Origin: Pontibacterium sinense
Lineage (GTDB): Bacteria > Pseudomonadota > Gammaproteobacteria > Pseudomonadales > Balneatricaceae
DNA: 61,747 nucleotides
Direction of reading: 5' to 3'
Assembly (NCBI RefSeq): GCF_015209595.1
Contig: NZ_JADEYS010000025.1
Span: 1-61,747, forward strand
The translations under genes were made by a program, and so were the position numbers. Within the stretch, counting starts at the first letter, position 1, and every line of letters begins with the position of its first letter. Below, one piece after another: positions 44,039-48,328 of the stretch. The notes under the pieces were generated by a model, which did not search any database, was not told where the DNA came from, and saw only the letters and a list, made by a program, of their open reading frames with translations.

Positions 44039-44566
44039 ATGCCCGTTGTCCAGAAAGATCCCGACCACAACCGCCGTTTTATGGCCCGCCTCATGACCTA
44101 TGGCTTCTGGATTATTTTGCTGGCTGGCTTCACTGTCTACTTTGGTGGTCTGCTGGAAAAAAAACACAATCCCAACCTTCACCTGGCCAACTCAACCGGT
44201 CAACCGTCACCTGAAGTTGTTCTGAAGCGCAACGCCTATGGGCACTATGTCGCACCGGGCTTGATCAACGATGTACCCGTCATTTTTATGTTGGACACTG
44301 GCGCAACCTCAATTAGCATTCCTAAATCGGTGGCCGATACAATGCAGTTGCGGCAACGTGGTAGCAGTAGGGTTAACACCGCAAATGGCTCAATCACAGT
44401 GCACAACGTTCGTCTGGACAGTGTCTCTTTAGGAAGCATTACACTCAACGATATGCGGGCACATATTAATCCGTATATGGAAGGTAATACCGTGTTATTG
44501 GGTATGAGCTTCATGAAACATCTGGAAATGGTGCAAAAAGGCGACACCTTACGCCTGCGTCATTAA
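44039..44566 (+). CDS. Membrane-anchored retropepsin-like aspartic protease
   Basis: 175 residues with one N-terminal membrane helix (about 20-40, IILLAGFTVYFGGL) and a periplasmic clan AA aspartic protease domain (about 60-173) with the catalytic FMLDTGATSIS motif, IPKSVA and the VLLGMSFMKHLEM segment that closes the fold. Matches the TIGR02281-type single-domain family; active enzymes should be dimers. It starts 41 bp after the double-receiver gene and may share its transcript. Substrates unknown. Confidence 0.88.
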   Translation: MPVVQKDPDHNRRFMARLMTYGFWIILLAGFTVYFGGLLEKKHNPNLHLANSTGQPSPEVVLKRNAYGHYVAPGLINDVPVIFMLDTGATSISIPKSVADTMQLRQRGSSRVNTANGSITVHNVRLDSVSLGSITLNDMRAHINPYMEGNTVLLGMSFMKHLEMVQKGDTLRLRH

Positions 44567-45260
44567 GCACGTCCAGCGCCCTTCAATACATCCACTCTCG
44601 CAGCGGTAATTTACCTCAGCTCCCATTTTAAACCACAAAACTTTGTACACTATCGTGGGACCAGGATAACAAAACATCAGCCCCCTAATGAGCCTGATCC
44701 AAAGCCCCCGCAATCAAACAAATGTTTCAAACTTTGATCATTAAAAAACCTTAACTTGAACAAACATACAGAAACAGTGTAAGCAATCTACAGAACAAAG
44801 CGACTTGTTCGATTTTCCATACAAATCACGTTGATTTCCCATGAGTTATGTAGTTTTACGACACAAATGATAAACAAGTCACAAATGTCTTATTGAGTGA
44901 AATCAATAGATTTACACCTTTTTCAAACAACAGCAGAAATATAGGTATTTTCCCCGTAGTTTTTCCAGTTAATTTCTGTATGATGACACTCCTGATTCAA
45001 AAGCGAACAACTGTACGTTTATCGCTCATAAGATCTAAAACAGAATGTCCGCCTGTTCCAGAAGTCATTTGTATCCAGCTATGTTGTCGGATGATGTCAA
45101 ATGGGAACCATGGCAAAACCATCACGGTTCTGCTGTCTCCTGATACTGGTAGTTTGTAGTCGGTATGCAGTCAGGATGTGATCGGATGGTTTCGTAACGT
45201 TGATGGGAATACTGGGAGGGGAATGCTCTTCTCAGGATTCGAACGTCTGTGATGTAAAAC
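44567..45260 (+). other. AT-rich non-coding stretch upstream of the repeat array
   Basis: No convincing gene. An 88-codon frame at 44893-45159 has no ribosome site or recognisable sequence. A possible -10 TATGAT lies at 44979-44984 but without a good -35. TTGAGTGAAATCAA (44893-44906) differs from the FNR dyad by one base, yet no -10 is at the right distance. The stretch 45165-45245 is rich in GGA, including CAGGATG and GGGAGGGGA. A GTAGTCGG motif at 45156 resembles the array units that follow. Confidence 0.4.
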
Positions 45261-45480
45261 CTAAGTAGTCGGATACCGTTGGGTTACCCGTAACTGAACA
45301 CCTAAGTAGTCAGACAGTATGTAGTCGTCTGTGGAATAGCGCTAAGTAGTCAGACAGTTAAGCCGTCGTCTGTGCGCTGTTTCTAAGTAGTCGGACAGAT
45401 AGTTGTCGTCTGTGGTGAGCAGTTTGTTGTCGGGTCCTAGTGGCATCCGTGGTTTACATCTAAGTAGTCAGACTGAAAAT
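45261..45480 (+). ncRNA. Tandem array of six about 40-bp hairpin units, candidate structured RNA
   Basis: Units start at 45261, 45302, 45342, 45383, 45422 and 45460 (spacing 41, 40, 41, 39, 38). Four begin CTAAGTAGTC exactly and one more begins so with a different stem; the fifth unit is diverged (GTTGTC for GTAGTC). After this linker the units can fold a 5-bp stem: CAGAC/GTCTG (45311-45331 and 45351-45372), CGGAC/GTCTG (45392-45412), CGGGT/ATCCG (45431-45449), and a version with one mismatch CGGAT/ACCCG (45270-45290). The base changes keep pairing, with a G-U pair that works only in the plus-strand RNA. The last unit lacks the 3' arm. No ORF spans the array. Confidence 0.6.
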
Positions 45481-45510
45481 CCTGCATGATAGCAATAACG
45501 TTACAAGGGT

Positions 45511-45559
45511 ATCAGGGATGATCACTTTTCACCCTGATGCTGCCCTCGCTGGCAGCATC
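45511..45559 (+). terminator. Two stacked hairpins after the repeat array
   Basis: ATCAGGG pairs with CCCTGAT across 45512-45538, and the alternative GATGCTGCC (45536-45544) pairs perfectly with GGCAGCATC (45551-45559) around CTCGCT. They overlap by three bases and so may be mutually exclusive. No T-run follows, so this is a weak terminator candidate or a 3' stabiliser. Nothing further is seen from 45560 to 45684. Confidence 0.4.
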
Positions 45560-45684
45560 AGCTCCAAACCTCCTGCTCTTATACAAACCACCCAGATACA
45601 CGAATAAATGCGCTTTACCCCACTTCTTAGCCAGAGTCGCCTAGCTAACAACAATCGATTAGCAACCGCTGAAACAGTACTTAC

Positions 45685-46278
45685 CTAATTTTTAACCCAA
45701 ACAACAAACTGGTTATTTGCCGGCATCGCATGATCATGTTGCAATCGCATCCCGTTATTTTGAGCCCAACGATCAAGCGTCTCGAAATCCCGGATACCAC
45801 TGCGCGGATCGCGGTCTTTCAACCAGAGATCAAAATTAGCATTGCTAGCGCTGGTGTATTGGCCGCTATAGCGGAATGGCCCATAAACACAAAGCTTGCC
45901 TCCGCATTCCAATAATGCCCCTGCACCGTCAAAAAATGCCCGGACTGAGTTTTCGTCCATAATATGCAGAGTATTCGCAGTGAAGATAGCATCCGGTTGA
46001 TGGGGGATCTGCCAAGGCTGAACACCGACATCCAAAGCCAGCGGCGACAGGATATTTTCACAAGGAGAGTTCTGCAGATTCTCTAATAACGCGGGCAAAT
46101 TAAAAGACAGATCACTCGGCACCCATGTCAGGGAAGACATAGCCTGAGAGAAGTACAGCGCGTGCTGACCTGATCCGCTCCCGATCTCCAGTACACAGCG
46201 GTGACTCTCTAGATAGTGCTGTAACATCGGCAGGATAACGCCTTTGTTCCGCTCACAGGCTTCAGAAAAGTTCAGCAT
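45685..46278 (-). CDS. DUF938 family SAM-dependent methyltransferase-like protein
   Basis: A 197-residue Rossmann-fold protein with SAM motif I VLEIGSGSGQHALYF, PSDLS as motif II, ALDVGVQPW and FTANTLHIM. It matches the DUF938 family, whose methyl acceptor is unknown. It follows the HAD gene at 46300 by 21 bp on the same strand, so the two are probably co-transcribed. Confidence 0.88.
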   Translation of the reverse strand: MLNFSEACERNKGVILPMLQHYLESHRCVLEIGSGSGQHALYFSQAMSSLTWVPSDLSFNLPALLENLQNSPCENILSPLALDVGVQPWQIPHQPDAIFTANTLHIMDENSVRAFFDGAGALLECGGKLCVYGPFRYSGQYTSASNANFDLWLKDRDPRSGIRDFETLDRWAQNNGMRLQHDHAMPANNQFVVWVKN

Positions 46279-47428: not shown

Positions 47429-48328
47429 TCAGTTCAGCTTAAACATAACAGGGATTGAGACCCAGGACTCGATAGCAACACCACCTTCCTTCGCAGGTTC
47501 AAATAACCAGTGCTTTGCCGCTTTTAATGCAGCTTTATCGAGCAGTTCAAATCCACTGCCGTGCACAACCTTTATTTCCAGCGTCACACCACGGGGATCA
47601 ACCAATGCGTGCAACAACACTTCACCCTGTTGCTTCTTACGCTTAGCTTTACGCGGGTACTTTGGAGGACGGGGTACCTCTCGATACTTCGCTTTGATCA
47701 CTCGGATCGGCTCTGCTTCCGGCTTCGCTACACCGTGCTCCGCATCAATAGAGCGCGAATCCGATACAGACGAGGCGTCGATGGGATCAATCGTCTGATG
47801 AAAAGCTTCTGCCTGCTCTGCAACGACCTTTTCAACCGATACCAGTGACTTAACTGGCTGTGGCTGTGGCTGTGGCTGTGGCTGTGGCTGTGGCTGTGGC
47901 TGTGGCTGTGGCTGTGGCTTTGGCTTTGGCTGTGGCTTTGGCTTTGGCTTTGGCTTTGGCTTTGGTAAAGCTTGCTGAACACTTTCCCTGGCGGCAACCT
48001 CCGAAGTCTGTACATCCTGTTTGAGACTAACATCCGCTTTGGGTTCCGCTGCAAGCTTCTTTGTTTCGCGAGGCGGTTCTGTCTGATCAGGGCCGGATGA
48101 AGTCACGATCTCAGGAATAACTTCCGTCGCATCCAGATCTGGTGGGGATGGATGTGCAAAAGCTAACCGAACATGATGGACCACCCGTGCAGCAGGTTGC
48201 TCGGTGGTAACCTCTCTGGCTGAGAGCTCCGGAGACGAGCTGCCCCAGCCCAGCGCAAAGCTCAGGTGGGCCAGAATAGAGAATGAAGCCGCGGCACAAA
48301 GCGGCTTTACTGAATCATACGGTAACAT
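47429..48328 (-). CDS. tonB: TonB-family energy transducer with long PQ/PK repeat linker
   Basis: 299 residues: short cytoplasmic start, one membrane anchor (about 9-28), an acidic periplasmic stretch, a proline-rich rigid rod of Pro-Lys then Pro-Gln dipeptides (about 121-158), and a TonB C-terminal domain (about 220-299, with YPRKAKRKKQQGEVLLHALV and WLFEPAKEGG). It should carry proton-motive energy from ExbB-ExbD to the adjacent outer-membrane receptor, whose stop lies 36 bp upstream. ExbB and ExbD are not in the window. The linker is encoded by a hexanucleotide tandem repeat. Confidence 0.92.
   Translation of the reverse strand: MLPYDSVKPLCAAASFSILAHLSFALGWGSSSPELSAREVTTEQPAARVVHHVRLAFAHPSPPDLDATEVIPEIVTSSGPDQTEPPRETKKLAAEPKADVSLKQDVQTSEVAARESVQQALPKPKPKPKPKPQPKPKPQPQPQPQPQPQPQPQPQPQPVKSLVSVEKVVAEQAEAFHQTIDPIDASSVSDSRSIDAEHGVAKPEAEPIRVIKAKYREVPRPPKYPRKAKRKKQQGEVLLHALVDPRGVTLEIKVVHGSGFELLDKAALKAAKHWLFEPAKEGGVAIESWVSIPVMFKLN
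47854..47966. repeat. Hexanucleotide tandem repeat (TGGCTG/TGGCTT) in tonB
   Basis: About 18-19 copies of a 6-bp unit, first TGGCTG then mixed with TGGCTT, encode the PQ/PK rod of the TonB protein. Changes by whole units keep the frame, so slippage would lengthen or shorten the rod without destroying the protein. Confidence 0.9.

Follow-up and report, generated by a model that had tools for sequence, protein, structure and literature searches.

A predicted noncoding RNA element with an array of GUNGUC units in the genus Pontibacterium

Judged from its sequence, the intergenic locus analysed here is a real, unnamed noncoding element of the genus Pontibacterium, and very probably gives rise to an RNA. 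A preliminary description had proposed a structured noncoding RNA, read from the + strand, in which a tandem array of hairpins keeps its pairing by compensatory changes. Conservation, synteny, strand asymmetry and the helices beside the array lend good support to such an RNA, but the proof from the stems of the array units fails against shuffled sequences. The window, i.e. the whole stretch of DNA analysed (61,747 bp), is the entire contig G000:C18 of a 4.6-Mb genome (G000), which was compared with the four other genomes of the genus: G001, G002 (Pontibacterium granulatum A-1), G003 (a record named 'uncultured Marinobacterium sp.' N1E34-Z) and G004 (an Oceanospirillaceae MAG). The following features were assigned to the locus.

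44039-44566, + strand: TIGR02281 aspartic protease gene, upstream flank of the gap that holds the array.
44849-44863, strand not set: operator-like palindrome TGTAGTTTTACGACA, 11/12 to TGTAGT-N3-ACTACA.
44956-44984, + strand: proposed promoter (putative), GTAGTT, 17-nt spacer and TATGAT.
44990-45545, + strand: predicted noncoding transcript with putative ends, a conserved block without codon periodicity.
45140-45170, + strand: hairpin of the leader, CTGATACTGG/TCGGTATGCAG; in G002 one A-U pair is changed to U-A.
45194-45201, + strand: 5' arm of the closing helix, GTAACGTT, in which G002 has one U-A to C-G change and one broken pair.
45212-45235, + strand: hairpin with invariant CTGGGAGGG, whose partner varies C/U; one mismatch in G002.
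45261-45480, + strand: six-unit array carrying GTNGTC motifs; both arms of a 5-bp stem are found in units 2-5.
45497-45504, + strand: 3' arm of the closing helix, AACGTTAC.
45507-45538, + strand: GGGTATCAGGGA, identical in all four loci; can pair ATCAGGG/CCCTGAT.
45534-45561, strand not set: GC-rich hairpin CTGATGCTGCC/GGCAGCATCAG, a possible transcript end that has no T run.
45685-46278, - strand: DUF938 gene, convergent downstream flank.

The array had been described as lying in a 1.1-kb gap without likely genes and as not covered by any ORF, and both statements were confirmed: the gap between the protease and DUF938 genes extends from 44567 to 45684, no ORF of at least 50 aa overlaps 45261-45480 and stops are present in all six frames. 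The element occurs once in the window genome. G002, G003 and G004 likewise have a convergent DUF938-type gene 3' of the array. On the 5' side lies the protease gene in the window, G002 and G004, and another ORF in G003. In G001 the DUF938 gene sits in a different neighbourhood that is devoid of array motifs; there it adjoins a phosphotransferase-like ORF (by eye; L031, G001:C13:99500-106500), and the motifs are absent from this 7-kb stretch.

The conserved element measures about 550 bp (~44,990-45,540), roughly 2.5 times the length first reported; the interval 45261-45480, to which the preliminary description confined it, makes up less than half. In 60-bp bins from 44999 to 45538, identity was 0.83-1.00 to G004 and 0.53-0.88 to G002, level with that of the flanking genes. 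Upstream, at 44579-44698, it was 0.50 and 0.38 (G004) and 0.48 and 0.45 (G002), and the region 44699-44938 is still 0.75-0.92 identical to G004. Downstream, at 45539-45658, identity to G002 was 0.23 and 0.28, and that to G004 declines only slightly (0.85, 0.78, 0.73). The differences over the array were distributed over the three codon positions as 4/10/6 and 31/24/21, without periodicity, whereas those in the protease gene were strongly periodic (6/2/35 and 37/19/92). The conserved unit is noncoding. A protein-coding reading was rejected on the absence of an ORF across the array, the 40-nt period and the missing codon periodicity. Two shorter frames were also rejected. An 88-aa frame with a TTG start (44893-45159) is open in the window and in G004, with differences to G004 that are even across codon positions (9/6/7), and has no counterpart in the ORF lists (at least 80 aa) of G002 and G003. 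A 26-codon leader frame, read by eye, stays open in the window and G004 and meets stops in G002.

The repeat itself is as first described in that six units follow one another at 38-41 bp, with starts at 45261, 45302, 45342, 45383, ~45422 and 45460 (spacings 41, 40, 41, 39 and 38). The linker said to be common to all of them, CTAAGTAGTC, is exact in five of the six, but unit 5 has TTTGTTGTC instead. TRF reported 2.8 copies at 45302-45414 (score 119). Between 44987 and 45545, GTNGTC is found 11 times on the + strand and not once on the - strand, counted without overlap (13 times on the + strand if overlapping matches are included); in 300 dinucleotide shuffles the mean non-overlapping count was 1.7 and none reached 11. 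The corresponding counts for the four loci were 11, 11, 11 and 17 on the + strand and 0, 1, 0 and 0 on the - strand. Six units are present in the window, G002 and G004, with nearly the same spacings in all three, and nine in G003. The motifs of the array are direct repeats whose spacing alternates between ~16 and ~24 bp. From unit to unit the linker hardly changes, and conserved positions span most of the 40-nt unit. Likeness of the units inside one array was 0.80 in G003, 0.59 in the window and 0.54 in G002. Orthologous identity of units 2-5 was 1.00, 0.97, 0.92 and 0.81 between window and G004, and 0.82, 0.74, 0.72 and 0.59 between window and G002, non-orthologous units of the latter pair showing 0.57. 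Evolution of the array would thus fit selection for several equivalent sites plus occasional expansion. A second repeat is present in the window at 47855-47965, where about 18 copies of TGGCTG encode, on the - strand, Pro-Lys/Pro-Gln repeats in a 299-aa ORF (47429-48328). This ORF has the look of a TonB-type linker and adjoins a TonB-dependent-receptor-like ORF (by eye); the repeat is a possible slippage site.

Every unit had been thought to carry a 5-bp stem. Such a stem was seen in units 2-5 (four of six), but units 1 and 6 are divergent and the second arm is absent from unit 6. Compensatory changes in these stems, the key argument of the preliminary description, were not substantiated. Stem covariation was assessed in 20 units (19 distinct) from four genomes, columns 10-14 being paired with columns 27-31. 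The stem pairs in 90/93 cells, and both sides have changed in one cell only. In all, 96.8% of the cells pair against 96.2% in the shuffles, and 239 of 500 shuffles did no worse than the real units; as shuffled stem partners pair as well, the argument is unsupported for the units. The stem changes between units are mostly A-U/G-U swaps. The claim that the G-U pairs point to the + strand did hold, since 90/93 cells pair with G-U allowed compared with 75/93 if only Watson-Crick pairs count, the number that would remain on the - strand. When 27 units were folded singly, two fell below z -2 against base shuffles and 25 did no better than z -2. Nor was the proposed row of hairpins recovered, either in the minimum-energy fold of the whole + strand or in a consensus fold of three sequences, the latter retaining a local hairpin in unit 3 only. 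Changes on both sides affect 18 of the 126 pairs of this consensus fold, many of them inside a long inter-unit duplex, a model feature that we judge not to be trustworthy. Folding of the whole + strand RNA gave z -2.3, with 3 of 100 shuffles as good, and z -1.7 was obtained for G003. The - strand of 44987-45575 folds better than the + strand (z -3.9, 0/100 shuffles, versus z -2.3), which runs against the preferred strand.

The few real compensations sit in the leader and the closing helix and not in the unit stems. That the RNA would be on the + strand is suggested by several features: A/G changes face U, GTNGTC at the window's locus is confined to this strand, the partner of CTGGGAGGG varies C/U, and the changes in leader and closing helix compensate. 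The identity of GGGTATCAGGGA in the four loci, where it can pair downstream in each (by eye), points in the same direction; the pairing ATCAGGG/CCCTGAT was read by eye and is predicted as such for G002 alone. A helix GUAACGUU/AACGUUAC is able to join both ends around the array. The flanks of the array at 45196-45220 and 45496-45520 are directly alike (AACGTT, four bases, GGG, then GGGA), and because of this resemblance the closing helix appears to join two related elements. Folding of 75-nt 3' segments gave z -3.0 (window), -4.3 (G004), -1.7 (G002) and -4.2 (G003). At the 3' end of the element no T-run terminator was found. Two rival hairpins at 45507-45561, ATCAGGG/CCCTGAT and CTGATGCTGCC/GGCAGCATCAG, share CTGAT, and G002 is without the second.

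Consistent with the statement that no known family was recognised, Rfam 15 at the gathering threshold gave only a tRNA in the window, and no match with E up to 5 was obtained for 44900-45650. A published description of the element was not found in the open-access papers searched. BLAST with the intergenic region matched 4 of 57 genomes (one of them that of the window itself), and all four belong to the five of the genus; the G003 sequence as query again matched four of these five. In G001 neither BLAST nor the unit model gave a match anywhere in the genome. A model search with the units as seed, recommended earlier, was clearly positive in four of the five genus genomes, but no relative was recognised in the other 111 genomes of the family. 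Among the 116 family genomes BLAST, the unit model and a model of the 3' core each ranked the same four far above the rest, the best E values outside them being 0.024, 0.0048 and 0.0029, respectively. In 390 genomes of the order (a sample in which the genome of the window and no fewer than 17 members of the family set recur) the unit model found the window's genome plus one weak single match (L090), with no array there. Weak BLAST matches in 9 of the 111 family genomes and weak unit-model matches at L036, L037 and L090 were rejected, as 300-600 bases read at each contained no array; weak 3'-core matches in 12 of the 111 were set aside by E-value alone. A DNA pattern gave two hits in Ruminococcaceae, with one match each, and had no match in viral contigs. 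Weak relatives can be missed by these searches, because stricter filters applied whenever more than 40 genomes were searched.

Upstream of the element lies an imperfect 15-bp operator-like palindrome of the RccR/HexR type. The palindrome at 44849 is the only place in the 61.7-kb window that scores at least 10/12, and such palindromes precede the element in all four loci: 11/12 in the window and G004, 10/12 in G002, nine bases ahead of its TATGAT, and two of 11/12 each in G003. A looser pattern, TGTARTWWWWYTACA, which we take to be a HexR consensus, was matched as often in 9/100 shuffles for the window, 14/200 for G004, 6/200 for G002 and 0/200 for G003; taken singly, the operators of the window, G004 and G002 are weak. 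The block ATTTCTGTATGAT is identical in the window, G004 and G002 but not in G003, whose TATGAT block is missing, and a scan for consensus promoters did not flag the proposed promoter at 44956-44984. Perfect palindromes precede aceE, the neighbour of pdhR, in G000 and G001 (from ORFs and families) and in G002 and G003 (from the flanks), with a second copy of 10-11/12 near each aceE. According to PMC5489143, from which the RccR half-site was taken, two such 15-bp sites 68 bp apart precede aceE of P. fluorescens and are bound by RccR, the affinity of which for these sites is lowered by KDPG. One RpiR-family protein was present in each of three genomes searched; that of the window genome is HexR-like at 295.2 bits, just below the cut-off of 296. 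PdhR, a GntR-family protein (355.4 bits against a cut-off of 330) whose gene adjoins aceE, might bind the palindromes instead. Transcription of the element is perhaps tied to the pyruvate/KDPG state. Two further perfect palindromes are present in G000, between transporter-like and cysteine-synthase-like ORFs (L084:1501-1515; G000:C33:22916) and between polyphosphate-kinase-2-like and EAL/HDOD-like ORFs (L086:1501-1515; G000:C52:74638), these ORFs being read by eye.

A sponge or titration role, which the preliminary description had put forward, seems the most likely reading; of the readings left, a multivalent protein-binding RNA fares best, with a chance that we put at about even. The partner of the GUNGUC units would more likely be a protein than an mRNA. 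The proposal as a whole, for and against which the balance appears level, is that of a ~550-nt noncoding RNA with a motif array that titrates an RNA-binding protein, under a carbon-state operator common with aceE. Its conservation, noncoding character, repeat anatomy, synteny and operator-like sites are observed. The transcription and its ends, the binding regulator and the titration, which we infer, would take the following form. The RNA would be made from the + strand and be conserved in Pontibacterium, its leader and 3' end folding into conserved hairpins and the GUAACGUU/AACGUUAC helix bringing its ends together. Between these ends 6-9 units would each present GUNGUC before both arms of a weak 5-bp hairpin. 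The repeated motif would constitute a multivalent landing site that, as in CsrB or CrcZ though with another motif, titrates an RNA-binding protein (with lower probability, a second RNA), and transcription would follow the central carbon state by way of the TGTAGT-N3-ACTACA-type operator. Only tentatively can one go on to suppose a new class of RNA, an end-to-end-closed scaffold whose 6-9 units bind many copies of an undescribed GUNGUC-specific protein and which is controlled by a pyruvate/KDPG operator that also precedes pyruvate dehydrogenase.

An unlikely alternative is that GUNGUC or the linker base-pairs with mRNAs or small RNAs, the RNA being an antisense regulator or an RNA sponge. The near-constancy of the linker would suit this, as would the placing of both motif copies of each unit in predicted unpaired or weakly paired positions. 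It is opposed by the complementarity to the linker, a genome-wide survey of which had been suggested: all exact copies of the complement GACTACTTAG fall within the array in G000 (5/5) and G004 (3/3), although 3 of 4 occurrences in G002 and 2 of 5 in G003 are elsewhere. Antisense action by the full-length linker is therefore unlikely. The pattern read backwards, a control that is not composition-matched, occurred 19, 16, 17 and 14 times in the four genomes.

Still less probable is a CsrA-titrating RNA in which CsrA is bound by conserved GGGA/GGA elements of the leader and 3' part, with the array as their scaffold. GGGA does occur five times in each of the four predicted transcripts (reached by 3, 3, 4 and 5 of 300 shuffles), three of them are enriched in GGA (12, 15 and 1 of 300; G003, 168/300), and elsewhere in the five genus genomes no CsrB match exceeds the cut-off (a weak one in G002 has E 0.011 over 30 positions). 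However, the CsrB model has no match at the locus, A-N-GGA is not enriched, and the units of the array do not preserve GGA, the base there alternating between A and G. We consider it improbable to a yet higher degree that the array acts as DNA, as a series of direct sites for a DNA-binding protein. Its regular spacing and the resemblance of its GTAGT to the half-site TGTAGT, which is itself present in several units (mostly in G003), could be so explained, but the array scores at most 9/12 for the full palindrome, the alternating spacing in direct orientation does not fit, and the leader, the closing helix, the 3' element, the C/U partner variation, A/G facing U and the strand asymmetry are left unexplained. 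A functionless neutral repeat, i.e. a decayed mobile element or a slippage product, would accord with the variable unit number and the genus member that lacks the element, but is very hard to reconcile with a single-copy, syntenic locus that is conserved like its flanking genes and has matching spacings in three genomes.

Multi-site bacterial RNAs have led to the global regulators CsrA and Hfq/Crc, or to toxins. With its GUNGUC motif, the conserved architecture of its flanks and a possible connection with the control of pyruvate dehydrogenase, the element, which is carried by the named strain P. granulatum A-1, would offer a specific bait with which to look for a new RNA-binding regulator of marine gammaproteobacteria.

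Among known systems, the RccR operators of Pseudomonas aceE share the TGTAGT-N3-ACTACA palindromes, which are paired upstream of aceE in this genus too; they differ in that here one precedes a candidate noncoding element, and the main text of PMC5489143 contains neither 'sRNA' nor 'non-coding'. Unlike in a CRISPR array, conservation runs through most of the 40-nt unit, and near-identical repeats are not separated by unique spacers. The ToxI RNA of type III toxin-antitoxin systems also consists of tandem structured repeats of similar length (36 nt), but here the leader is long and conserved and no toxin gene follows on the same strand, the next gene being the convergent DUF938. CrcZ, the carbon-controlled sponge RNA of Pseudomonas that titrates Hfq/Crc by A-rich motifs, shares the idea of a sponge under carbon control; it differs from the GUNGUC units and closing helix found here, the comparison extending to the general Rfam scans. 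The CsrA-titrating RNAs CsrB, RsmY and RsmZ, with their many repeated short motifs and hairpins, are similar as single-copy noncoding RNAs with many repeated motifs and in a possible link to the carbon state, whereas the present element, which the CsrB model does not match, repeats GUNGUC at a spacing of 40 nt.
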